Below are positions 7,258 through 37,641 of a DNA stretch of 64,000 nt, piece by piece; the stretch's first letter is position 1; every line of letters begins with the position of its first letter. The translations under genes were made by a program, and so were the position numbers. This stretch comes from Frankia casuarinae (GTDB taxonomy: Bacteria > Actinomycetota > Actinomycetes > Frankiales > Frankiaceae): positions 124,001-188,000 of the forward strand of contig NC_007777.1 of assembly GCF_000013345.1 (NCBI RefSeq), read 5' to 3'. The notes under the pieces are model-generated. The model was not told where the DNA came from. It ran no database searches and saw only the letters and a program-made list of their open reading frames with translations.

Positions 7258-7513
7258 CTACGGGATGGTCCACTCGCGCACGGTGACGATGTCCAGCCGT
7301 CGTTCCACGACGGCGCCTGCCGGCCAGCCGTTGACGAGCCGGGTCAGCTCGTCGGCCAGCGATTCGGAGCCGACGGCGTGCCACCTCTGCGCGGCTAGGC
7401 CTGCCCGTAGCGCCTCGGCGTAGGAGCTCCGGCTCATCTCGGCGATGTCGCGAACCATCGCCGTCGTCGTCGCGTTGGCCCTGGGTGGCCGCGGTCGCGG
7501 TCAGGATCTTCAT
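7258..7513 (-). pseudogene. Small actinobacterial protein with internal deletion
   Basis: The ATG at 7513 has a strong GAGGAG site and encodes MKILTATAATQGQR, the characteristic start of a small actinobacterial family (remembered as DUF7715-like). Immediately afterwards the reading frame changes: frame 2 continues NATTTAMVRDIAEMSRSSYA and runs to a normal C-terminus VVERRLDIVTVREWTIP. In the family, tens of residues normally separate the TQGxR start from the xATTTAMV block. The simplest reading is an internal deletion that also shifted frame, near 7470. The peptide encoded in the first frame is then meaningless. Confidence 0.65.
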
Positions 7514-7747
7514 GTCGGCTCCTCGGAGCAGGGAGGTGTCGGGTGCACGGGCAAGCGAGCGGTCACAACCGCGGGCCGTTGAGTCGTGACCGCGGGCTGT
7601 TGAACGGACGGGCCCCGAACGCAGTCGGGCCCCGAACGCAGTCGGACCCGCGCATCGAAGCACCCGGGAGCTCAATCGACGAGGAGTAAATCCGGCTGTG
7701 GGCGCCCTCGACGGACGTCACCGCAGGTCAGGTGCCCTATATCGAGC
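7514..7747. repeat. Intergenic with short tandem duplications
   Basis: GGCCCCGAACGCAGTCGG is present twice in tandem with a 17-bp period (7611-7645). A second duplication, GCCGAACGCCGAGAA, follows at about 7757-7784 at the edge of the next remnant. No gene is seen in this stretch. Confidence 0.5.
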
Positions 7748-8400
7748 GTGCGCCGCCGAACGCCGAGAAGCCGAACGCCGAGAAAACGCGCTCATCTGCA
7801 GTTCCTTGACTCCGGGGGCGGCGACGGCGTCCAGCTCGCGCGGAGCGCCCTCGGCGAGTTCGACCCGTCGTTGCTCCGGGTCGCGGCGGGATCGGGTGCG
7901 CTGTCGGTGCGTCGGTCGGTCCAGCTCGATGCCGAGACCTCGGTCTGGATCGGGACGTCGTCCGGTGCGCATCCCGGGGCGGCTGTCGAGGTAACCGGCC
8001 CGGCGCAGCAGCAGCAGCCGGCGGCGGTCGGGCCCGCGTGGCAGGCGGTGCTCAGGCTGATCACCGCGACGGAGCCGGGGCTGGTCGAGCTGGTGCGGGA
8101 GCTGGCGGCGCGGGATGTGCCGGTACCGGAGGTCGGGTACGAACTCGGGGACGCGGCCTGGCAGGCGGAGCTGGCCTGGCCGGCCGCCAGGATCGGGGTC
8201 GTCACCGCGGCCGGGCCGGGCGACCCCGAAGGCTCGGGACGCGACGCCGCCTACGCGGCGGCAGGCTGGCTGGTGCGGACCGTGTCCGAATGGCAGGCAT
8301 CCGATCTCGCCTCGAACCTCACATTGAATCTCGTAGCGAACCTCGCAACGAACCTCGCAACGAACCCCGCATCAAGGATCGATGGTCCACTCGGCTCACG
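7748..8400 (+). pseudogene. Helicase/nuclease-type protein, C-terminal remnant
   Basis: The frame from about 7790 to 8380 has strong coding character: LDSGGGDGVQLARSALGEFD, then AWQAVLRLITATEPGLVELV, then VPEVGYELGDAAWQAELAWP and DAAYAAAGWLVRT. The last blocks resemble the nuclease-like C-terminal ends of large DEAD/DUF1998-type helicases. No start or helicase motifs precede them. After 8310 the protein degenerates into NL-T/A-rich repeats coded by GAACCTCGCAAC units, and the open frame then runs out of phase under the UvrD gene. I read this as the 3' end of a larger gene whose 5' part is gone; the family is a guess. Confidence 0.4.
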
Positions 8401-10361
8401 GAGGGACAGCCAGTCGTGCGGAACGGCAGCTGACCCACACCCGGGTCAGGCCCGCCCAGGTCAGGCCAGAGCCGGCGCCGGGAGTCGGCGACACCGCAGG
8501 GGGGGAGCCGGGCGGCCAGAAGGACGTCGAACGGCCGTTGTTCGAGGCCTTCACCGACCAGGACCTGGTCGACCTCGGTGTGGTTCCGGCCCTGCTTCCG
8601 CTGATCAGACGGATCGTTGACGAGGACGAGCTGCTCGGGCTCGCCGAGGTCGCCCCGCAGCTCACGTCCGACGTGCTCCTGGCGCTGCACGACGGCAAGA
8701 GCGTCGAAGAAGTACTCGAACACGTCACCGTGCCGGTGAAGGCCGACAGCCCGGTCGACCCGGAGGACTTCGCTGCGGCGGTTGCCCGGCCGGCGACCCA
8801 GGTGACCAGCGACGATGCCGCGCTGCAGGCGGTGCTGGGCGAGTCGTTCGCGCGGTGGCAGGTCTTCCTGCATCCGACCCAGCGCCAGCTCGTGGACCGG
8901 GTCTACGGCGGACCGGCGCGGGTCAGCGGCGGGCCGGGAACCGGGAAGACGATCGTCGCGCTGCACCGGGCCGGGCACCTCGCCGCCCGGCTGCCGCCGG
9001 GCGATGACAAGCCGATCCTGCTCACCACGTTCAACCGCAACCTTGCCGCCGACCTGCGGGCCCGGTTCCTCGACCTGGTCGGCCCCGACCTCGTCGATCG
9101 GGTCGATATCGTCAACATCGACAAGCTCGCGAGCCGGGTTGTCGGTGAGGCCGGGGCGAGCCGTCGCCGGCGGACGATCGACGATGACGCCGCCGTGCGG
9201 GAGTGGGCCGCGATGCTTGACGAGGTCGGTGAACGACGGTGGGACGCCGAGTTTCTCGCGGCCGAGTGGGCCGAGGTCGTTCTGGGCCAGGTGCTCCGTT
9301 CCCGCACCGACTACTTCAAGGCCCGGCGACCAGGTCGAGGGCGGCCACTGTCCCGAGCCGACCGCGACGCGGTGTGGCAACTCGTCGAACGTTTCACCAA
9401 GCGCCTGGACGACGCCGGTGTGTGGACGTGGCGCCAGGTAGCCGAATACGCCGCCCGCACCGAACAGGACCGCGCGGCCGCGGTGGTGAGCGCGGCCGGT
9501 CAGCCCACCGCTTCCGGCTCCCTGCCCAGGTACCGCTATCGGCATGTCGTCGTGGATGAGGCCCAGGACCTCAACCCGGCGCACTGGAAGATGCTGCGGG
9601 CCATGGTCGCGCCAGGTCGGGACGACATCTTCCTCGTCGGCGACACCCACCAGCGAATCTACGATAATTACGTCACGCTTGGTAGTCTCGGCGTGAATAT
9701 CCGTGGTCGCAGTGCCAAGTTGACGCTGAGCTACCGCACCACCCGTCAGATCCTGTGGACAGCGCTTCGGCTGCTTGCCGGTGAGACGTACGACGACCTC
9801 GACGGCGGCGACGACAACCTCGCGGGGTACCGGTCGCTGCTCAGTGGCGGAGAACCCGTGCTCGGTGAGGCCGTCACCTGGGCGGATGAACTGAAGCTCA
9901 TCAGCGGGCAGATCAGGGTCTGGGAGAGCGCCGGCGACGGTTCGACCAGTGCCGGCGACGGTTCGACCGCCGTGTGCGTGCCGACTCGACGGATGGTGGA
10001 GGACGTCGTCACACACCTCGAGGCGAGCGGGATTTCTGCCATCGAGATCGGGCCGGACGGGCCGAAGCGAGCCGGCGGCGTCCACGTGGGCACCATGCAC
10101 CGTTTCAAGGGCCTGGAGTATCGGCGGATCATCATCGGAGGTGCCAGCGCCGGGCTTGTGCCCCGTGGCGTGGTCGAGCGGTACCAGGACGTCGACCCAA
10201 AGCGGTACCAGCAGGAACGGGCACGAGACCGGTCACTGCTGTTCGTCGCGGCGACCCGCGCCCGCGACGACCTGGCGATCTTCTGGCACGGCCGGCCAAG
10301 CCCGTTCCTGGCCGCCGCCTGGACGCGGCGTCGCGCCGTTGGGTCGAGCTTGCGCAATTGA
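8382..10361 (+). CDS. UvrD/Rep-type superfamily 1 helicase
   Basis: Up to 659 residues. All main SF1A motifs are visible: Walker A VSGGPGTGKTIVAL (near residues 182-195), Ia-like LLTTFNRNLA, Walker B VVVDEAQDLNPAHW, motif III FLVGDTHQRIYDN, motif IV LTLSYRTTRQI, motif V GTMHRFKGLEYRRI and motif VI LFVAATRARDDL. It should be an ATP-driven DNA-translocating helicase in repair or in a defence-like system. The ATG at 8382 lacks a clear ribosome site, and recognisable protein starts near residue 47, so the N-terminus may be a fusion with the remnant upstream. A duplicated AGDGST heptapeptide (codons at 9930-9968) is an in-frame 21-bp tandem duplication. Confidence 0.88.
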   Translation: MVHSAHGGTASRAERQLTHTRVRPAQVRPEPAPGVGDTAGGEPGGQKDVERPLFEAFTDQDLVDLGVVPALLPLIRRIVDEDELLGLAEVAPQLTSDVLLALHDGKSVEEVLEHVTVPVKADSPVDPEDFAAAVARPATQVTSDDAALQAVLGESFARWQVFLHPTQRQLVDRVYGGPARVSGGPGTGKTIVALHRAGHLAARLPPGDDKPILLTTFNRNLAADLRARFLDLVGPDLVDRVDIVNIDKLASRVVGEAGASRRRRTIDDDAAVREWAAMLDEVGERRWDAEFLAAEWAEVVLGQVLRSRTDYFKARRPGRGRPLSRADRDAVWQLVERFTKRLDDAGVWTWRQVAEYAARTEQDRAAAVVSAAGQPTASGSLPRYRYRHVVVDEAQDLNPAHWKMLRAMVAPGRDDIFLVGDTHQRIYDNYVTLGSLGVNIRGRSAKLTLSYRTTRQILWTALRLLAGETYDDLDGGDDNLAGYRSLLSGGEPVLGEAVTWADELKLISGQIRVWESAGDGSTSAGDGSTAVCVPTRRMVEDVVTHLEASGISAIEIGPDGPKRAGGVHVGTMHRFKGLEYRRIIIGGASAGLVPRGVVERYQDVDPKRYQQERARDRSLLFVAATRARDDLAIFWHGRPSPFLAAAWTRRRAVGSSLRN

Positions 10362-25000: not shown

Positions 25001-26695
25001 CTAGAGTTTCGCAGTTTTCTTGATCCAGATCAGTGTCTGGCAACGGCTGGATAATTTTCCCGATTGCTTTCGGGTGGATGATTCCCTGGTGCCTGCCGGT
25101 GGTATCGCGGTGCGTGGCGGAGGGGTGGAAGGCCAGCGCGAGGGGCTGGTGGCGGGAGCATCAGCGTTTCCTGTACCAACCCGAAAGTTGGACGCCGATG
25201 CTCCCGGACGTGACGATACCGGTTTCTCTGGCGGTGCTGCTGGAGGGTTTCCGGCCGTGTTTCACCGCGCCGTCGTTCCGGACGTTCCGGGCGCTCGTCG
25301 TGGGGATGCTCGCCACCGGCGGGCGGCGCACGGTGTGCGGGATGCTCGTCGGCGCGGGCCTGTCCACGCTGTGGCCGCACGACCGGGCGCACCGGTTTTT
25401 CGCGCGGGCGGTCTGGTCGCCGGAGAAGGTCGGCCTGGCGCTCGCCCGGCTCGTCGTCGACCGCCTCGTCCCGGCCGGGCCGCTGCACGTCGTCGTCGAT
25501 GACACCCTGTTCCACCGGGCGGGGAAGAAGGTGTGGGCGGTGGGCTGGTTCCACGACGGATCCGCGAAGGGGCCAGACCAGGTCGGGTTCGGCAACAACT
25601 GGGTGATCGTCGGCCTCGTCGTGCCGGCGCCGCTGCTCGGCCGGCCGGTCTGCCTGCCGGTCCTGGCCCGCCTGGTCCGCAAGGACACCGTCTCGGCCTC
25701 GCGGCTCTGGCTGGCCGCCCGCGCGGTCGAACAGCTGGCCGGGGCGTTCCCCGCCCGCCGGGTCCACGTCGTCGCGGATGCCGCCTACGCCGGCGACGAG
25801 CTCAGGGGACTGCCGGCCTCGGTGACCTGGACGACCCGGCTCCGCCGCGACGCCGCCCTGTTCGCCCCCGCCCCACCCCGCACCGGGAGACGTGGCCGGC
25901 CCCGACTCAAGGGCGACCGGTTGCCCTCCCTCGCCCAGCTCGCCGCGGCCGCGACGTTCCGCCCGACGGCCGTGACCCGCTACGGCCGCGCCGGGACCGT
26001 GCACACGGCGGTCATCCGCTGCCTGTGGTACGGAGTGTTCGGCCCCCGCCCCGTCACCGTCGTCCTCGTCCGCGACACCGACCGGCCCGGGACCTACGAC
26101 CTCGCGCTCGTCACGACCGACACCCTGACCAGGCCCGCCGAGCTCGTCGCCCGCTATGCGGCCCGCTGGTCGATCGAGGTCGCGATCGCGGACGCGAAGC
26201 AGATCTTCGGGGTCGGCCAGGCCCGCAACCGACTCACCGCCGCCGTCGAACGCACCGTCCCGTTCGGCCTGGCCTGCCAGACCCTCGCCTTCGCCTGGTA
26301 CCTCACCACCGGCCACCACCACGGCGACGCCGCCGACCACCGCGCCCGCACCCCCTGGTACACCACCAAGACCCGCCCCTGCACCGCCGACCTCGCCGTC
26401 AAGCTCCGCCGCGTCCTGATCACCACCCAATATCAGCCCACACGGCCCGCGAACCCGACCGACGCGGAAATCCACACCCTCCGCCTCGCCTGGGCCACCA
26501 CCGACAGCGCCCTCGCGGCCTGACCAGCCCCCATCCCGGCCCCACAGCCCGGGAACCAGACAAAACAGACATCGACCCGAGACCGCAAACCAGCTCAAAC
26601 ACCCCACCACGAACCAGCACACCAAACACGCACAGAACACGTCTCACGCGACGTCAACCATAAAATTGGAGATCAAGAAAACCGCGAAAGTCGAG
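25001..26695 (+). mobile_element. IS701-type element, full length
   Basis: 1695 bp. Left end CTAGAGTTTCGCAGTTTTCT and right end, read inward, CTCGACTTTCGCGGTTTTCT form imperfect inverted repeats of about 25 bp. Ends are fixed by the 6-bp target duplication. It carries one transposase gene. The truncated relative at 2294 shares its left end. Confidence 0.93.
25198..26523 (+). CDS. IS701-family transposase, complete
   Basis: 441 residues from the ATG at 25198 (MLPDVTIPVSLAVLLEGFRP), the start shared with the other copy. Catalytic blocks: HVVVDDTLFHRAGKKVWAVG (Asp), VHVVADAAYAGDELRGL (Asp), and ARWSIEVAIADAKQIFG (Glu). This is the DDE_5-type fold. Length and ends appear intact, so this copy is probably active. 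Upstream in-frame codons to 25033 are leader sequence without a ribosome site. Confidence 0.92.
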   Translation: MLPDVTIPVSLAVLLEGFRPCFTAPSFRTFRALVVGMLATGGRRTVCGMLVGAGLSTLWPHDRAHRFFARAVWSPEKVGLALARLVVDRLVPAGPLHVVVDDTLFHRAGKKVWAVGWFHDGSAKGPDQVGFGNNWVIVGLVVPAPLLGRPVCLPVLARLVRKDTVSASRLWLAARAVEQLAGAFPARRVHVVADAAYAGDELRGLPASVTWTTRLRRDAALFAPAPPRTGRRGRPRLKGDRLPSLAQLAAAATFRPTAVTRYGRAGTVHTAVIRCLWYGVFGPRPVTVVLVRDTDRPGTYDLALVTTDTLTRPAELVARYAARWSIEVAIADAKQIFGVGQARNRLTAAVERTVPFGLACQTLAFAWYLTTGHHHGDAADHRARTPWYTTKTRPCTADLAVKLRRVLITTQYQPTRPANPTDAEIHTLRLAWATTDSALAA

Positions 26696-27333: not shown

Positions 27334-28895
27334 CAGGGCTCCGGCACGTTCGCGTTATGACCGGCTCGTCCGCGCGCCGACGGGACGGCCTGGATGTCCG
27401 TATCGTCAGGGAAAGCCGTGCAGGTCGAGCGCGGCGGTGGCGGTCTTGCAGGCCCGGCGCCCGGCCGGAACGTAGCGGTGGCCCGCGGCGCGGACCGCGT
27501 GCGCGACAGTGGCGCGGAAGATCGCGAGGTTGGCCGGGCCGCGGCGGGTCCGGCTCCGGCTCGCGTCCTCACCGAAAGTGACGTCACGGACGTGGTGCTG
27601 ACGGTTCTCGATGATCCACTGGCCGCGGGCGGCGTCGGCGAGGAACCCGGCCGAGGCCTGCTCGAAGGCCAGATCCGTGATGCCGTAGACCGTCTCCCGG
27701 CTGGGTTTCCTGCCCTTCTCCCGGCGCCAGCGCTGGATCCGGACGGCCTGGCGGGCGTGCGGGAACTCGGCGTGCTCGACGGTCGCGGCCTTCAGCGTGC
27801 GGGTCTCGTCACGGCCGTGGCCATGGTCGTGGGTGGTGTCGGCGACCGGGACGTCCGCCCACGGCAACGCGGCCAGGAACGCGCGCAGCGTTGGCTGGTT
27901 GCCCTTCACGACCGCAAGGTAATGGGCCTTCTTGTCGGTGACCAGCCAGTCGAGATGGTCGCGCACGGTATGCAGAGCGTCGAAGGTCAACAGGTCGCAG
28001 GCAAGGTCGAGGGGCTCGAGGACAGGGCGGAACGCCTTCGTCTCATTGCTCTTCGAGTCCACCTCGTGCTGGTTGACCAGCCGGCCGGTCGCCTGGTCGG
28101 CGACCCCGACCAGTTGGACCTGCCGCCCGTCGGCGCGCTTCGCGCCGCGGCTGGTCTTCCCATCCAGTGCGTAGACCGCCCGCACCGCTTCTCCCGCCGC
28201 CTCGGGTGACGCCGGCTTCGGCGGGGCCGGGTCGGCCAGCGGCGGATCGAGCAGTGCGCGGGCGAGCCGCGCGTCGTCGGTGTCGTTGAGGAACCGGCGG
28301 ATCGTCGACTCGCTCGGCAGCCGGTAGCCGTCAAACGGGTCGTACGGCAGCCGCAGCCGGCGCCGTTCCTCCTCCGTGGTGCCGGCGAGCCATTCGATCA
28401 CGGCGGTGACCCGGTCATGGCCCGCCGCGGTCAGCGCGCACAGCCACACCGCCGCCAGCACCGCCAGCGGGTAGACCCGCCCACGTCGGCCCCGGTGCTC
28501 GCCCATCGCGTGCAGCCGCTGCCAGATTCCCTCACGCGACACCGCGCCGGCTCCCACCACACCGGCCGCGTCACGCGACAATGCCCCCACAGGCACGTGC
28601 GCTCCCGGACCACGAAGACGTTAGACACCTCCGTGATCTACAGGCGCCGTGCCTGTCTTCTTCTCAGCGACGCGTGACCTGGCCGTGTCCGCCCGCCGAC
28701 CCCCGCGCCCGCCCGATCAGGGCATACCGGGACCCCACCAGCCAACTCCGGGCGGACCGGGACCTCAGCTGACAGAACCGGCCAGGGCACCGCCCAGCAG
28801 GCCAGAACAACGAACACCTGGATCGATCACGCGATCAGCGCCACCCAGGACGCACGGCCACGATCACACCAAAGCGCGAACGTGCCGGAGCCCTG
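27334..28895 (-). mobile_element. ISAs1-type element, complete
   Basis: Perfect 21-bp terminal inverted repeats: CAGGGCTCCGGCACGTTCGC at 27334 and its complement ending at 28895. One transposase gene is read on the minus strand. No target duplication is obvious in the flanks (CAGCCG on the left, CGGGTT on the right). Confidence 0.9.
27406..28596 (-). CDS. ISAs1-family transposase, complete
   Basis: 396 residues. Motifs in order: RGRVYPLAVLAAVWLCALTA (N-terminal), YALDGKTSRGAKRADGRQVQ (first Asp), ACDLLTFDALHTVRDHLDWL (second Asp), HYLAVVKGNQPTLRAFLAAL, and ARGQWIIENRQHHVRDVTFG (Glu). This is the standard ISAs1/H-repeat protein. It is uninterrupted and the element has intact ends, so transposition is plausible. 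It is more diverged from the ISAs1 copy at 17673 than a recent duplicate would be. Confidence 0.92.
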   Translation of the reverse strand: MPVGALSRDAAGVVGAGAVSREGIWQRLHAMGEHRGRRGRVYPLAVLAAVWLCALTAAGHDRVTAVIEWLAGTTEEERRRLRLPYDPFDGYRLPSESTIRRFLNDTDDARLARALLDPPLADPAPPKPASPEAAGEAVRAVYALDGKTSRGAKRADGRQVQLVGVADQATGRLVNQHEVDSKSNETKAFRPVLEPLDLACDLLTFDALHTVRDHLDWLVTDKKAHYLAVVKGNQPTLRAFLAALPWADVPVADTTHDHGHGRDETRTLKAATVEHAEFPHARQAVRIQRWRREKGRKPSRETVYGITDLAFEQASAGFLADAARGQWIIENRQHHVRDVTFGEDASRSRTRRGPANLAIFRATVAHAVRAAGHRYVPAGRRACKTATAALDLHGFP

Positions 28896-29064: not shown

Positions 29065-30531
29065 TCAGTTGGGCAGGAAGAACGCCGGCTCGTAGCCGGA
29101 CGCGGCGAGGTCTTCGTAGGTCTGGGTGGCGGGAACCCGATCCCACACGCCGCCGAGTAGCACCGCAAAGCCGGATGGCGCCGCCATGAAGAGGTGGAGT
29201 ATTGGCGGATTGACACGGCGCGCGATCTGCCGGCTCAGGTCGCGAACGGCCAACGCGACGGCATATGCGTGATCTCTGTCGGCGATGCTACTACCCGAGA
29301 TTCCGGAGGGCAGGCTGATCGTGATGATGGGTATATCGCGTCCAGTGCTAGCGATGTAGCTGGTGACGTCTGGGGTCAGGTCGGCGGAGATCGCGAGCGC
29401 GAGTGCGACCTCGCTGCCTGGCCGAAGTTCAGCGATCGATGACGAGAGGCAGATGGAAGCGGGCATGATCGTTCCGCCGGGTTTGAGCCACAGTTGGCCG
29501 TCCTTGGTCTTGGCGGGGATAAATCCGGCTGTCTCCTGGAACATGACGGCAGCGGTGAACCAGGTCGGCAGTCGCATGGTGCCGGTGATGAGGATGCGTT
29601 TCGCGCCGAGGCTGCGCAACGTCCGCTGAGCGTCGATGAGTTGTGGCCGAAGAACTGTTTCCCATTCCTTGGGGTTCTTGAGACCGCGTCGGCTGCGGGC
29701 CTCGCTTCCTCGGAATCGGTCCACCCAGTCGAGCGTCACGCGGGCGTCCGGGTTTGTGAAGCCTTCGTCGAGGGCGTTGATGGCAACCATGGTGAATGGC
29801 TCTTGCGCCCGGATGCCGAGGCGGTCGATGGCGGCCGCGATGTCGGCTGGTCGTTTCTGGCTGCGGCTGGTTTTGACCCACTCTCGAACTTCGGCGATTC
29901 CGAGCCGGTAGGCGACTTCGTCTGCTTGGACACCCGCCGCGTGGCTTATGTCTCGGATATGATAGTCGCGCCAGGCAGCTTCGGATGCGTCGGTGTGTAG
30001 CCGCAGGTTGGACAGGAATTCGTACAGCTCGTCGTCGGTGCAGTCGAGGTGACGGAGTAGGTTTCGACGTCCGGCCGCTGTAGCTGCATTAGTCGCGGTG
30101 CACAGCCGATCCGCCAAGTGATCATTGCGGTCTCGCAGGGTGAGCACCGGGTCGTCGGGGTGGATGGACCGATTCGTGACCAGGGTCAGCCTCGGGTGGG
30201 CACCGTCGACCCGCAGCTGCTGCGAGGTGCGGTAGAACCGCTGGAGAATGCTGGGGCCTCGCTTGCCCGACAGCGCGGTCAGCCACTCAATGGTCGCTGC
30301 TTTCTCGGCTGTGACGCTGGCCTTGACCTGCATGTAGTCGTCCGGCCCGTGGGCCTTCCCGATGACGACGTCGTCCACGTTGCCGGCCGTCACCGCCTCG
30401 ACAGTGACGGCGTTGGCGCCCGAGTGTGGCACAAGGGTGCGCAGCGCGGCGTGCCAGGCGACTGCGTACTGGAGGTCATCGCCGGTGACGCGTGCGCCGC
30501 TCGCGCTGGGCCTGCCGCTGTCGGCTGCCAT
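29065..30531 (-). CDS. cap4: CBASS effector: endonuclease-SAVED protein (Cap4)
   Basis: 488 residues. The N-terminal nuclease has VTGDDLQYAVAWHAALRTL, then NVDDVVIGKAHGPDDYMQVK with Asp53/54 and Q-x-K at 68-70, the PD-(D/E)xK core of Cap4. The C-terminal SAVED domain starts after WETVLRPQLIDAQRTLRSL and shows SEVALALAISADLTPDVTSY, then RRVNPPILHLFMAAPSGFAV and a YEDLAASGYEPAFFLPN end. Cap4 proteins bind a cyclic oligonucleotide with SAVED and then cut double-stranded DNA, killing the infected cell. It is last in the operon, 6 bp after cap6. Confidence 0.9.
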   Translation of the reverse strand: MAADSGRPSASGARVTGDDLQYAVAWHAALRTLVPHSGANAVTVEAVTAGNVDDVVIGKAHGPDDYMQVKASVTAEKAATIEWLTALSGKRGPSILQRFYRTSQQLRVDGAHPRLTLVTNRSIHPDDPVLTLRDRNDHLADRLCTATNAATAAGRRNLLRHLDCTDDELYEFLSNLRLHTDASEAAWRDYHIRDISHAAGVQADEVAYRLGIAEVREWVKTSRSQKRPADIAAAIDRLGIRAQEPFTMVAINALDEGFTNPDARVTLDWVDRFRGSEARSRRGLKNPKEWETVLRPQLIDAQRTLRSLGAKRILITGTMRLPTWFTAAVMFQETAGFIPAKTKDGQLWLKPGGTIMPASICLSSSIAELRPGSEVALALAISADLTPDVTSYIASTGRDIPIITISLPSGISGSSIADRDHAYAVALAVRDLSRQIARRVNPPILHLFMAAPSGFAVLLGGVWDRVPATQTYEDLAASGYEPAFFLPN

Positions 30532-30537
30532 GGCGCG

Positions 30538-31449
30538 TCAGTGGCGCGAGGTGAACGGGGGCGTGGGCGGGTTCGCCTTGACCTGGCTGATGATCATCTG
30601 TGCGGTGACAGGCTGGTCGGGGTAGGCGGCCAGGCAGGTGGAGGCAACGAGGCGGTCGGTGAGGTCGGAGTAGGTGAAGCCGTAGCCACGTCCATTCGGG
30701 CCAGTGAGCCGCACGAGAGTTGCGATCTCCCCCTCGCTGAGGGTGACGCCATCGAAGATCCTTGCGAGGACCGCGCCGCGTTGGCTGTCGTCTGGCCGGC
30801 TGAAGTCGAATTCGGCGGCGGCCCGGCGGCGGATGGCGGGATCGAGCGCGTCCCCACGGTTGGTACACATGATCACCAGAACAGCGAGCTCTTCCGCGGC
30901 GATCTGGCTAATACCGCGGATCAGCGCGTTCACGCCGGCCCGATCCTCGTGGTGCATCTGGCTGGCTTCGCGGGACTGTGCGAGGGCGTCGGCCTCGTCG
31001 ATCACCAGGATGAGTGGCCGGCGGCCACGGTTTGCTCGGGCTTCGGCAATGATCGTGTCGAACGCTGTCCCGATCAGACGGGTCATCTCGCCGACGATGC
31101 CACTCCCGCGGGTGCGCAAGCTGAGCCGTTTGACGCGCACGGTGATGTGATGCTCGCGAGCGATGGCGTCGGCGAAGGTCTCGGCGAGCGTCGTCTTTCC
31201 GGTTCCGACATCTCCGCTAAAAATGATCAAAGGTGGGCGGTGGGCCATCAGCCTCACGGCGGGCAGCACGGCCCCGTGCATGGCGGTGCTCCAGTCCTCC
31301 AACAGCGAGGGCTTGAGGATGACCTCCGCTTCCTTGAGGAGGCGGGTCTTGATGTGGTCGAGCCCGACCAGCGCCGTGTAGCGCCGGAGGGCGAGCGGGT
31401 CTGGGAGATCGAGGTCGTCGTCGAAGATCTCGGCGGGTGTTGTGCTCAT
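30538..31449 (-). CDS. cap6: CBASS TRIP13/Pch2-like AAA+ ATPase (Cap6)
   Basis: 303 residues from the ATG at 31447-31449, which overlaps the HORMA stop as ATGA; the 101 codons open upstream are shadow of the HORMA gene. Walker A FSGDVGTGKTTLAETFADA (near residues 78-96), Walker B RPLILVIDEADALAQSR (near 144-160), sensor 1 VLVIMCTNRGDALDPAI and Arg-finger-type RRRAAAEFDFSRPD. In type III CBASS this ATPase remodels the HORMA protein and so keeps the synthase silent without infection. Neighbour order and the tight coupling support that role here. Confidence 0.9.
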   Translation of the reverse strand: MSTTPAEIFDDDLDLPDPLALRRYTALVGLDHIKTRLLKEAEVILKPSLLEDWSTAMHGAVLPAVRLMAHRPPLIIFSGDVGTGKTTLAETFADAIAREHHITVRVKRLSLRTRGSGIVGEMTRLIGTAFDTIIAEARANRGRRPLILVIDEADALAQSREASQMHHEDRAGVNALIRGISQIAAEELAVLVIMCTNRGDALDPAIRRRAAAEFDFSRPDDSQRGAVLARIFDGVTLSEGEIATLVRLTGPNGRGYGFTYSDLTDRLVASTCLAAYPDQPVTAQMIISQVKANPPTPPFTSRH

Positions 31450-31955
31450 AGCGGGCGGTAGCTGCTCCTGGTGAACCCCGTCCCCTGGGCGGAGTAGGTG
31501 CGGTCGGTGGTGTGGAAGCCGCCGGAGTACCCCGGCGCCGCCGCCGGGGTCCGCACGATCGGCAGCGACTTCTCGATCGTGTCGCGGATCGCGGCGTCCA
31601 GGCGCCACCAGGCGGGTGAATGGATCAGGTAGCTGGTAAACGTGGCGTCGACGACGTCGGCGTGCCGGCACACGCCTCCGGCGCGGTCGTCGGTTGTGAG
31701 TGTGCCGTTGACGAAGACGTACTCCAGGGTCAGAATCCAGGCGCCGCGACATTGGAAGCCATAGATGACCTTGTCCACGTGGCCCCCGTGGGCCAAGGCT
31801 GTGGCTTCCGCTGCGAGGTCAATGATCTCTGTGTCGGACGGCTTGCCGTAGTACCGCTGGAGCTGGGCCAGGTCGGTAGCAATCTTGGATGCGACATACC
31901 GCGCCGAGGCGATGCTGAAGGTCTCGTTGGTGGTGAGCGTGGCGGTGATGGTCAT
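31446..31955 (-). CDS. cap7: CBASS HORMA-domain protein (Cap7)
   Basis: 169 residues from the ATG at 31953-31955, two bases after the synthase stop. Starts MTITATLTTNETFSIASARY, then VASKIATDLAQLQRYYGKPS with the N-terminal helices of bacterial HORMA proteins, IYGFQCRGAWILTLEYVFV and VDATFTSYLIHSPAWWRLD; the tail IVRTPAAAPGYSGGFHTTDR is flexible, like the closure/safety-belt region. Bacterial HORMA proteins bind peptide signals and activate the partner CD-NTase. Identification rests on sequence pattern and on position between the synthase and TRIP13 genes. Confidence 0.82.
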   Translation of the reverse strand: MTITATLTTNETFSIASARYVASKIATDLAQLQRYYGKPSDTEIIDLAAEATALAHGGHVDKVIYGFQCRGAWILTLEYVFVNGTLTTDDRAGGVCRHADVVDATFTSYLIHSPAWWRLDAAIRDTIEKSLPIVRTPAAAPGYSGGFHTTDRTYSAQGTGFTRSSYRPL

Positions 31956-31957
31956 AA

Positions 31958-32923
31958 TCAACCCCGGAACCGGTCGCCGAGGACGACCTGCCAGCACTCG
32001 ATGGCCTGGGCCCTCGTCGTGGCGTGCCGGGCTTCAGTGATCGCGTCCAGTGCCCGCTCGGCGGCCGTGACGATCCTCTGCTGGTCCTTCATCGTGTAGA
32101 GGCGTGCCGCGTTGTTCTCCGGGTTCACCGGGTCGAAGATCTCGATCACGTCGGTCCGCTGCCGTGGGAGGGCGTAGGCCGGGTAGTAGTCGGTGAAGGC
32201 GATTCGCTCGTTCAGTTCGGTCCGGACCACCAAGTCGAAGAAGCCGTCCAGGGCCGTGACGTAGTCACTGAACACGATCTTGTCTGTGTCGAGCAGGTGG
32301 GCGCACAGCAGCTCGACCATGAACGACTTGAAGCGGAAGTCCGCGTCTCGGTCTTTCTGCGCGTGGACCCACCACTTCACCAGCCGCACGACCTGCGCCC
32401 AGTCCGTAGGGCAGGCGCGCTTGCGGGCGCGGACGAAGTCGAGGTGGAGTCGCACACTGGTGAGCAGCCGGCGCCCATCGCTCTTGGAGACGAGGTAGCC
32501 CCGGTCGTCCGGATCGCCTTCGTACAGCACCGGGACGACGTCGACGTCGATGCCGCTGGACTTGAAGTGGATGTTGACGCAGTGGGTCGTCGCCTCGATC
32601 TGTGACGGGTCGATCAAGCCGCCGTATGCCTCCCGGAGCCGCTCCGCGAGCCAGTCCACCAGCTCCGCGCCGTCCTGCGGGGCTTCCGCCAGGCGGACGT
32701 ACACGGCGACGTCGTAGTCGAGGACGTTCCGAAGCGCGGTCCCCTTGGCGACCGAGCCCGCGTGAAGCATCTTCACCAGCGAGAAGTTTGGGTGCTTGGC
32801 GATATGCGCGTGCAGGCGCTCGCGGAGGTGGTTCACCTGCTTCCGATCCTCGTCCGCAGTCGCCTTCGGCAGGTTCACGACGCGTCCGGCAAACACCGCG
32901 AGATCGTCATGAGTGATCTTCAT
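31958..32923 (-). CDS. cdn: CD-NTase, cyclic oligonucleotide synthase of CBASS
   Basis: 321 residues, ATG at 32921-32923. The nucleotidyltransferase signature is intact: KMLHAGSVAKGTALRNVLDY then DVAVYV, giving Gly56-Ser57 and Asp69/Asp71, and the third acidic residue in SSGIDVDVVPVLYE (near 126-128). A C-terminal helical domain holds RLVKWWVHAQKDRDADFRFK and SFMVELLCAHLLDT. The enzyme should make a cyclic di- or trinucleotide when activated by the HORMA partner, feeding the Cap4 SAVED sensor; with Cap4, a trinucleotide is most likely (inference). It is first in a four-gene operon with spacings of 2, -4 and 6 bp. Confidence 0.93.
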   Translation of the reverse strand: MKITHDDLAVFAGRVVNLPKATADEDRKQVNHLRERLHAHIAKHPNFSLVKMLHAGSVAKGTALRNVLDYDVAVYVRLAEAPQDGAELVDWLAERLREAYGGLIDPSQIEATTHCVNIHFKSSGIDVDVVPVLYEGDPDDRGYLVSKSDGRRLLTSVRLHLDFVRARKRACPTDWAQVVRLVKWWVHAQKDRDADFRFKSFMVELLCAHLLDTDKIVFSDYVTALDGFFDLVVRTELNERIAFTDYYPAYALPRQRTDVIEIFDPVNPENNAARLYTMKDQQRIVTAAERALDAITEARHATTRAQAIECWQVVLGDRFRG

Positions 32924-33062
32924 GTCGTTCGGGTGCCCCCCTCCAGGAGTCGATCAAAGGGCGGCGCAACCGTACCACGGATGTTGACAAGGACAGCAAG
33001 CCTGGTCCAGGATGTTTGTATCAATCACATGATGTTGGCGTCACTCGCACACGGGGTCAAGG
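32924..33062. promoter_or_regulatory. Divergent control region of CBASS and its putative regulators
   Basis: 139 bp between two divergent starts. It contains TTGACA at 32984, the perfect palindrome CCTGGTCCAGG at 33001-33011 and, around it, the loosely mirrored arms TTGACAAGGACA (32984-32995) and TGTTTGTATCAA (33013-33024). A HTH repressor bound here could control both directions. Promoter positions are not certain. Confidence 0.5.
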
Positions 33063-33398
33063 ATGACAATCGAGCCCGCCTACCAGGAGTTCGGAGAGCG
33101 GCTAGCCCAGACACGTCGACATGCTTCGCTGACCCAGCGCGACGTCGCCGAGCGTTCAGGTATCAGCCGCCCGACTATCGCCAACATTGAGAAGGGGCGG
33201 CAGCGCCTGCTCTACCATCAGCTCCTCGACTTGGCGCACGCGATCGGGGTCGATCCACGCGACCTCCTGCCCGCCCCGCCGACACCGTCGCCGGCTCTCG
33301 CGCACCTCGATGACCTGGCGCCACCTGCTCATGTGCTTGACTGGGTCCGTCGGGGCGTAGATAGAACAGGCAGACAGGACCGTGGCGAGCAACGCTGA
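33063..33398 (+). CDS. HTH (XRE) regulator, CapH-like
   Basis: 111 residues. A complete XRE helix-turn-helix is visible in FGERLAQTRRHASLTQRDVA then ERSGISRPTIANIEKGRQRL and LLDLAHAIGVDPRDLLP. The C-terminal 30 residues are a short dimer or cleavage region. It is divergent from the CD-NTase gene and overlaps the ImmA/IrrE-type gene by 17 bp. CapH repressors of CBASS have the same size and the same partner, so I read it as the repressor of the operon. A plain toxin-antitoxin pair is the alternative. Confidence 0.82.
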   Translation: MTIEPAYQEFGERLAQTRRHASLTQRDVAERSGISRPTIANIEKGRQRLLYHQLLDLAHAIGVDPRDLLPAPPTPSPALAHLDDLAPPAHVLDWVRRGVDRTGRQDRGEQR

Positions 33399-33909
33399 GC
33401 GCGCAGCTCATGACCTCCTCGCCCGTCATGCCGTCGCCGCTCCACCCGTGCCAGTCGACAAGATCGCAGCGGCCGAGGGGATCTCCGTCGTTCAGGAACC
33501 GTTCCGCGACGACGAGGTCTCGGGCGTACTCCTCCGCGAGCCCGACCGGACGATGATCATCGTCAATGCGGCCAACGCTGTCGTCCGACAAAGATTCACT
33601 ATTGCCCATGAAATTGGACACTTCACGTTACATCGTGGAACTGTCTACCTAGACGGACGCGCCCGCGTGAACTTCCGGGATGGCCTGTCGTCTATGGCTA
33701 CAGACCAGGAAGAGATCGAGGCGAACTCATTCGCCGCAGCACTTCTCATGCCCACCAAATGGGTCAGAACAGCATTCGAGACCACAGTCCGAAACAGCCC
33801 GGTCGGCAGCGAGGAAGAGTTGGCCGGGCTGCTCGCTGGGCGCTTCGTCGTAAGCCGTCAAGCGATGCTCTTCAGGCTCATCTACCTCGGGCTTATTGCC
33901 GCACCTTAA
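33382..33909 (+). CDS. ImmA/IrrE-family metallopeptidase, CapP-like
   Basis: 175 residues. The zinc motif is RFTIAHEIGHFTLH (HEIGH at 76-80), and the third ligand is the Glu in EEIEANSFAAALLMP (near 113). In CapP, such a protease cleaves the HTH repressor CapH when DNA damage or infection is sensed, releasing CBASS expression. Here the gene overlaps the HTH gene, so they are translated together, and the pair faces the CBASS operon. The start overlapping in the HTH gene is the only ATG near the beginning of homology (NAERAAHDLLARHAV). Confidence 0.85.
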   Translation: MASNAERAAHDLLARHAVAAPPVPVDKIAAAEGISVVQEPFRDDEVSGVLLREPDRTMIIVNAANAVVRQRFTIAHEIGHFTLHRGTVYLDGRARVNFRDGLSSMATDQEEIEANSFAAALLMPTKWVRTAFETTVRNSPVGSEEELAGLLAGRFVVSRQAMLFRLIYLGLIAAP

Positions 33910-36041: not shown

Positions 36042-37406
36042 TCAGGCCGCGGCGAGCAGGGCGGTGATCTCCTGTGCGCTCAGGTTGAGGCTCTTGAGCT
36101 CGCGCAGGGCGTTGCGCTTGCGGCGTTCCCTGCTCTGCAGGCTGGCGTGGTAGTCGACTCCGAGGTCATGGAACCGCGCGGTGGGGTCGTTCAGCAGATG
36201 CCAGACGATGGTCAGGATGGAGCGGGCGACGGCGACGAGGGCCTTGAGATGGCCGCGGCGTTTGACGAGGCGCCGGTAGCGGGAGCCGAGGAAGGTCTTC
36301 GTCTTCGCCGCCGCCATGGCGGCCTCCCCGAGGGCGCCGCGCAGGTAGGGGTTGCCCTTGCCGGTGCGCCCGGTGCGGCTTTTCGCGCCGGACTGGATCG
36401 TCTGGGGGGTCAGTTTCGCCCACGAGTTCAGGTGGCCGGAGGTCGGGAACTGGGCCATGTCGGTCCCGATCTCGGCGATGATCACCTGGGCGGCGTGGCG
36501 GGCGATGCCGGGGATCTCGTCGAGCCGGTCGAGGATGTCCAGGCCGGGCCGGGCCGCGGCGCCACCGCCGCCCTGGCCGGTCCCGGTGGTGGCGTCCCCG
36601 TCGGGGCCGGTCTCGCCACCGCGGGCGGCGTCGGCGGCGGCGTGGGCCGGGGCAGGCAGGGCGGCGATCGCGGTGTCGATCCGCTCGGTGAGCTCGGCGA
36701 TCCGCCGATCGAGGCCGTCGATCTGGGCGAGCAGCACCGAGAGCAGGTAACCGTGGTGCTCGGTGAACTGGCCGGTCAGCGCGGTCGCCAGCTCGGCCTG
36801 GGTGGCCTTGACCCGGCCGCGGGCAAGCGCCGCGAGCTTCTTCGGATCACGTTCGCCCGCGACGAGCGCGTCGAGCATCGCCCGACCGGAGACCCCGAAG
36901 ATGTCCGACAGCACCGTCGACAGTTTGATCAGGGCGTCCTCGAGGAGCTTCTCGACCCGCAGCCGGTGCCGGGTGCACTCGGCGGTCAGGTCCAGGCGCA
37001 GCCGGGTGAGGTTACGGATCTCGCGGATCTCGGGTGGCGGCACGAAGGAGGGCCGTAGCATGCCACGCTCGTTGAGTTTGGCCAGCCAGATCGCGTCGAG
37101 TTTGTCCGTTTTGGGTCTTCCCGGGACGTTCTTGACGTCCCGGGCGTTAACCAGCCACACCGTGAGACCGCGGGCCTCGAGCAGGTAGTAGAACGGGCGC
37201 CAGTAGTCAGGCGTGGATTCCATACCCACCAGAGAAACCCGCTGTTCCGACAGCCACCCGGCCAGCCGGGTCAGTCCCGCTCCCGTCGTGGCGAAGGTCC
37301 GCACCTCCCCCCGCCGGCCGCCACCACGCCCGCCAACCCGGACCGCCGCCACGACCGTGTCCCGGTGCACGTCCAACCCGGCGACCCGGTCGATCAGCAC
37401 ATCCAT
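36042..37406 (-). CDS. IS110-family transposase (DEDD recombinase)
   Basis: 454 residues from the ATG at 37404-37406 with GGAAGGAGG upstream. N-terminal RuvC-like domain: VLIDRVAGLDVHRDTVVAAV (Asp), VSLVGMESTPDYWRPFYYLL (Glu), GRPKTDKLDAIWLAKLNERG (Asp-Asp). The C-terminal Transposase_20 domain has LDRLDEIPGIARHAAQVIIA, FPTSGHLNSWAKLTPQTIQS and KGNPYLRGALGEAAMAAAKT with the catalytic Ser region. A Gly/Ala-rich insert (about 285-310) lies between. IS110 enzymes are guided by a bridge RNA from the non-coding leader, which here would lie at 37407-37641. Confidence 0.92.
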   Translation of the reverse strand: MDVLIDRVAGLDVHRDTVVAAVRVGGRGGGRRGEVRTFATTGAGLTRLAGWLSEQRVSLVGMESTPDYWRPFYYLLEARGLTVWLVNARDVKNVPGRPKTDKLDAIWLAKLNERGMLRPSFVPPPEIREIRNLTRLRLDLTAECTRHRLRVEKLLEDALIKLSTVLSDIFGVSGRAMLDALVAGERDPKKLAALARGRVKATQAELATALTGQFTEHHGYLLSVLLAQIDGLDRRIAELTERIDTAIAALPAPAHAAADAARGGETGPDGDATTGTGQGGGGAAARPGLDILDRLDEIPGIARHAAQVIIAEIGTDMAQFPTSGHLNSWAKLTPQTIQSGAKSRTGRTGKGNPYLRGALGEAAMAAAKTKTFLGSRYRRLVKRRGHLKALVAVARSILTIVWHLLNDPTARFHDLGVDYHASLQSRERRKRNALRELKSLNLSAQEITALLAAA

Positions 37407-37641
37407 GAAAGACCGCCTCCTTCCCTTACGATCAGTGATCCACACGGACCGCCCGGGGAGGGCCTGTCATCAAAGATTCTGAGGTACGCGCTCGTGGCAG
37501 CAGGACAGGATTCCTCAGGACCTCCGCGCCACACTGACCTACGGGCTCGCAGGCACCACAGAGGGACGACGTCGGACCGGACGGCACCAACATCCTCATC
37601 AGGACAGGGTGCCGGCGCAAGCCGGCATGATCACTGACCTG
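37407..37641 (-). ncRNA. IS110 leader, candidate bridge RNA region
   Basis: About 235 bp between the transposase start and the presumed left end at 37641. It is not coding, contains GCCGGCTTGCGCCGGC-type stem sequence near 37610-37625, and its outer 110 bp (37532-37641) are repeated at 46788-46897 where another insertion occurred. In IS110 elements the 5' non-coding end encodes the bridge RNA; the exact RNA is not delimited here. Confidence 0.45.

Follow-up and report, generated by a model that had tools for sequence, protein, structure and literature searches.

The 64,000-nucleotide stretch of the Frankia casuarinae genome analyzed here (the window; C1:124001-188000 of a single-contig genome of 5,433,628 bp) carries two overlapping plus-strand genes, predicted to encode an XRE-family repressor and an M78-family zinc peptidase, which diverge from a CBASS operon on the minus strand. 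The features of this locus, in window coordinates, are as follows.

29065-30531, minus strand: SAVED effector with a Cap4-like nuclease domain (PADLOC SAVED3/Effector 4e-191, 1e-172; SAVED 1e-31)
30538-31464, minus strand: TRIP13-like AAA ATPase, Cap6-like (PADLOC TRIP13 7e-118)
31446-31952, minus strand: HORMA protein, Cap7-like (bacHORMA_1 6e-56; PADLOC HORMA)
31958-32923, minus strand: CD-NTase, with which the divergent CBASS operon begins (NF041116 CBASS_cyclase_a at 408 bits, cut-off 200; PADLOC Cyclase 4e-122)
33001-33011, no strand: palindrome CCTGGTCCAGG, flagged in the preliminary description, probably due to chance
33012-33030, no strand: predicted operator ATGTTTGTATCAATCACAT, fitting a 19-bp inverted repeat from the upstream regions of relatives
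33032-33050, no strand: a second, lower-scoring candidate copy of the operator (8.2-8.3 bits, same matrix), lying 20 bp downstream
33063-33398, plus strand: XRE-family repressor, CapH-like, 111 aa (ORF; Pfam HTH_31, 9e-15, and HTH_3; PADLOC capH)
33382-33909, plus strand: M78 metallopeptidase of 175 aa, GTG start, compact and CapP-like but lacking the C-terminal sensor domain (Pfam Peptidase_M78 2e-21; PADLOC capP)
33607-33621, plus strand: HEIGH zinc motif (H76-H80) of the peptidase, with the third ligand E111 at 33712-33714

The preliminary description had reported a 17 bp overlap between the two plus-strand genes, a divergent spacer of 139 bp and a HEIGH motif followed by a downstream Glu ligand, an anatomy that is confirmed by the open reading frames, by Pfam and by conservation. 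The spacer separates the repressor gene from the CD-NTase gene, whose start lies at 32923, and a scan of it for promoters and terminators revealed no consensus promoter and no terminator. The identification of the neighbor as CBASS was likewise borne out: CD-NTase, HORMA, TRIP13 and effector genes are all present, and PADLOC, Pfam and NCBIfam together describe a complete type III operon. Transposase-like genes are found on both sides of the CBASS/regulator unit (25033-26523, 27406-28596 and 36042-37445; families assigned by eye).

The peptidase possesses the HExxH motif and Glu zinc ligands of a CapP: residues H76, E77, H80 and E111 show no variation among 69 relatives, and E111 aligns with the equivalent Glu of IrrE. 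In an AlphaFold2 model (pLDDT 90), the chain stops after a helical module, and the loop at residues 94-104 is of low confidence yet conserved. Of the chains compared to this model with VIA-align, the closest was CapP from Thauera sp. K11 (7T5T; Z 18.2, rmsd 2.6, 153 residues), ahead of PprI with ssDNA (Z 13.8), other M78 proteins and an M. tuberculosis regulator (Z at most 13.8). Foldseek likewise points to CapP, and the modeled core shares the catalytic fold of that enzyme. The structural alignment reaches only CapP residues 6-186, however, and the peptidase measures 175 aa as compared to 289 aa in Thauera and 288-295 aa in canonical CapP proteins generally. Its best PADLOC match is capP (1.6e-31, 107.7 bits) over profile positions 3-153 of 242, whereas Thauera K11 CapP scores 274 bits over positions 2-241. 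Length, profile coverage and structural alignment all indicate that the C-terminal sensor domain of CapP is missing, and the GAF-like domain through which PprI senses ssDNA is absent from both the model and the structure comparison.

The repressor was modeled (pLDDT 87) as an HTH core at residues 5-68, with pLDDT of about 97, followed by a flexible linker at about 69-88 and a single C-terminal helix at 89-104. Recognition-helix residues R36, S/T38, N41, E43, G45 and Q47 are near-invariant across 59 relatives. The protein is similar in length to Thauera CapH (111 versus 107 aa) and its top PADLOC match is capH (6.6e-8, 31.6 bits), but the alignment is confined to the HTH part (profile positions 4-74 of 103) and does not extend to a full-length match, whereas Thauera K11 CapH scores 115 bits over positions 3-100.

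CapH/CapP, known structurally from Thauera sp. K11 (7T5T) and from the N-terminal domain of E. coli MS115-1 CapH (7T5U), is the nearest described system: in both cases an XRE repressor and an M78 peptidase are encoded divergently from a type III CBASS operon, and the CD-NTases of the two operons are homologous, so that the placement typical of CapH/CapP is also found in the window. Using the window CD-NTase as a probe, CBASS loci with 48-49% identity were recovered from Thauera K11, Klebsiella and Burkholderia, in which the same divergent slot is taken by a canonical CapH/CapP pair, consisting of an HTH gene and a gene for a peptidase of 288-295 aa. A CBASS locus with a nearer CD-NTase (L092, 56% identity) contains no such pair, which means that the pair is not obligatory for CBASS; a survey centered on the CD-NTase within the window's own class yielded just one relative, which has no pair. 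The expectation that such pairs accompany homologous CBASS loci held for the first three loci and failed at L092. In homologous CBASS loci of alphaproteobacteria (L098, L100 and L101), short regulator and GNAT genes lie between the cyclase gene and the HTH-peptidase pair, whose HTH protein is longer (156-166 aa).

Despite this shared position, the proteins themselves are only weakly similar. The window peptidase matches canonical CapP with E-values of about 3e-10 to 7e-8 as compared to 3e-48 for its best compact relative, and the repressor matches CapH of Thauera, Klebsiella and Burkholderia with 7e-5 to 2e-4 as compared to 2e-22. Judged from sequence, the window pair is not orthologous to canonical CapH/CapP and falls in a separate compact family. 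Since canonical and compact pairs score weakly together, a single CBASS lineage has two versions of its control module that are only distantly related. A comparison with the CapH and CapP families, proposed in the preliminary description, did return capH and capP as best matches, with partial profile coverage and a distinct family. Control of a CapH/CapP-like kind is well supported as a mechanism, by PADLOC, by structure and by the common slot, while strict family membership fails on the profiles. Derivation of the peptidase from a phage or prophage was rejected: the closest phage protein scores just 2e-16 against 1e-48 to 1e-44 for relatives from immune operons.

When four compact peptidases were used to scan 84,980 genomes, 80 loci from many phyla were returned. 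All 80 fetched relatives are compact, extending at most 19 residues beyond the query end, and an HTH gene lies immediately upstream of the peptidase gene in nearly all compact loci. A simple codon-model finder predicted the neighboring genes, and BLAST clustering grouped them by single linkage, which may have left a few wrong labels; representatives of the resulting classes were verified by HMM. E1/ThiF or ubiquitin-like (Bub-type) genes adjoin about 33 of 84 compact loci, and a CD-NTase (CBASS) or Pycsar cyclase adjoins 15 of the 84. At nine loci the neighbors are small proteins, which either carry DUF2188 or DUF3892 or belong to an unnamed family about 55 aa long, and some of the remaining loci sit at contig ends. 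On a peptidase tree, which is a quick build with many open forks, the CBASS label must change 10 times, and well-supported branches force at least 7 of these changes; such repetition argues that the compact pair moves between immune systems; the rows nearest to the window peptidase are Bub-associated. Among the small-protein neighbors, which make up a third class besides Bub-type and cyclase operons, DUF3892 occurs at L018, L020 and L066 and DUF2188 at L030, L039, L053 and L069. The unnamed family, ending in FKGVRKE(K/R), is found at L018, L030, L034, L048, L066, L074 and L080 as the first gene divergent from the compact pair, preceding the CBASS cyclase at L048 and L080, and the one member compared with Pfam gave no match.

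The preliminary description had also drawn attention to a perfect palindrome in the spacer. CCTGGTCCAGG is indeed present, but shuffles of the spacer contain a perfect palindrome with 5-bp arms by chance in 25% of cases at gap 0-1 and in 65% at gap 0-8, and the sequence occurs in 0 of 78 other upstream regions scanned; it was therefore rejected as an operator. Inverted repeats were then counted in 79 upstream regions against shuffles. Those with odd gaps were strongly enriched, with GTTTG-N5-CAAAC in 13 loci (shuffle maximum 2) and ATGT-N11-ACAT in 20 loci (shuffle maximum 8). Expectation maximization converged on a 19-bp palindrome, ATGTYWRYNNNRYWRACAT, common to relatives across phyla. When motifs were trained with the scored locus left out, the palindrome reaches p<0.01 in 49 of 72 upstream regions, and for 46 of 61 loci (about 1 expected) the top-scoring site of the whole locus lies in the 260 bp preceding the HTH gene; a strong operator is wanting in about 15 compact loci. 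The window site ATGTTTGTATCAATCACAT, which adjoins CCTGGTCCAGG, has a leave-one-out score of 17.5 bits in its upstream region, reached by 0 of 2000 shuffles, and ranks first across the 64-kb window when the motif is trained without the window locus. Tandem sites, such as the weaker copy listed above would form, are common among relatives. The half-site form TTGAC coincides with the -35 consensus, a possible confounder of the motif, and a protein site is favored over a -35 element because of the GTTTG form and the fixed spacing. One half-site form resembles the ATGTCA half-sites of the DdrO motif.

The motif scores at best 2.0-2.3 bits in the canonical capH spacers of Thauera and Klebsiella and 7.8 bits in that of Burkholderia. 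Unlike the window-type operator ATGTYWRYN3RYWRACAT, the Klebsiella spacer (L096) holds the palindrome AAGTTCG-N6-CGAACTT, of which the Thauera spacer (L095) has a less perfect near copy, and this sequence could possibly be the canonical CapH operator. A genome-wide scan with an IUPAC pattern (at most 2 mismatches) found 17 sites in F. casuarinae as compared to 8 for the reversed control pattern, which is too noisy for defining a regulon, and included one further single-mismatch site at C1:3933030.

Two further pairs are present in the same genome. The first is compact (L005 6312-7207; C1:1027311-1028206), with a peptidase 53% identical to that of the window, and diverges from a Bub operon (7389-9254) encoding Multi_ubiq, DUF6791-ThiF and DUF6527 proteins, across a spacer with the same operator class at L005 7254-7274. 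The other is a distant HTH-M78 pair with 31% identity (L007 2258-5437; C1:4802257-4805436), facing another Bub operon, which encodes Multi_ubiq and includes an E2-like gene as well as one that is ThiF-like by inspection of its translation. It is tempting, though still speculative, to regard compact pairs as a pan-bacterial immune controller with one operator code, in which repressors may read each other's sites and the trigger is sensed without the known ssDNA-sensing domain.

We propose, with a probability of roughly three in four, that the pair is a two-gene repressor-protease switch which governs the type III CBASS next to it in the manner of CapH/CapP, but with a trigger that is sensed differently. 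Repression, cleavage and derepression are proposed because they are known in CapH/CapP, PprI/DdrO and ImmR/ImmA. The 111-aa HTH protein would bind ATGTTTGTATCAATCACAT as a dimer between the divergent transcripts and silence CBASS as well as its own operon, promoter occlusion being an assumption since the spacer lacks a consensus promoter. Once infection or damage is signaled, the zinc peptidase would cut the repressor in the linker or the C-terminal helix after the HTH, whereupon the cut dimer would leave the DNA and CBASS would be expressed. Because the peptidase consists of a catalytic core and a helical module without the CapP sensor domain, the signal must arrive another way: the peptidase core may receive it directly, a partner may relay it as for ImmA, or basal proteolysis may be balanced against repressor synthesis.

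The alternative that the pair is a divergent but true CapH/CapP, whose peptidase is directly activated by single-stranded DNA, draws on the same slot, the same fold and the top capH and capP matches in PADLOC; moreover, many Bub operons are reported to have CapW or CapH+CapP (PMC13373217), a count that may include compact pairs. We consider it unlikely, since the sensor domain is missing from the window peptidase and from every compact relative fetched and since similarity to canonical CapP is weak when compared to about 1e-48 for compact relatives. In addition, PprI deprived of its GAF-like domain still cleaves at a basal level but neither binds ssDNA nor is stimulated by it (PMC10904395), which makes direct ssDNA sensing by the PprI route unlikely here. 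The PprI(IrrE)/DdrO system of Deinococcus does share the zinc peptidase core and an XRE repressor, with 35-37% identity between DdrO and the window HTH, but DdrO controls dispersed repair genes with no adjacent immune operon.

A mobile-element leftover resembling the ImmR/ImmA switch of ICEBs1, with partner- or RecA-dependent activation and no control of CBASS, seems improbable. Compared by description, ImmR/ImmA also combines a repressor with a metallopeptidase that inactivates it, responds to DNA damage and cleaves ImmR in its C-terminal part at F95-M96 (PMC8960796), and IS elements and plasmid-type genes do occur nearby in the window. ImmR/ImmA controls a conjugative element, however, whereas relatives of the window pair adjoin several kinds of immune operons and not conjugation modules, phage matches are far weaker, and the predicted operator is situated between the pair and CBASS, in their common spacer. 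A toxin-antitoxin pair (peptidase as toxin, HTH protein as antitoxin) that merely neighbors CBASS is very improbable: XRE/M78 pairs such as Brucella ZnMP/HTH-Xre are termed type II toxin-antitoxin (PMC10538038) and NCBIfam gives a match to the spr1629 repressor/antitoxin model, weak and far under its cut-off, but recurring divergence from immune operons and a dedicated operator suit a regulator better, and the repressor-first order is also that of CapH/CapP and ImmR/ImmA.

CapK/CapS and CapW are likewise controllers beside CBASS and Bub operons (PMC13373217), but with unrelated chemistry, a kinase with a STAS-wHTH protein and a WYL-domain regulator respectively. The literature found neither separates a compact sensor-less family nor gives its operator; the founding description of CapH/CapP, outside that search, may include some members. 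The principle of the switch is already known.

As CBASS kills the cell, the control that keeps it off or turns it on matters. The compact pair shows that the CapH/CapP layout is widely used in a form lacking the presumed DNA-damage sensor domain, so that the question of the trigger becomes testable. The conserved operator provides a sequence handle for finding immune operons under this type of control and, within one cell, for studying cross-talk between CBASS and ubiquitin-like defenses. If compact pairs do share an operator code, the presence of the motif in both the CBASS and the Bub spacer of F. casuarinae would mean that one trigger could raise both defenses.
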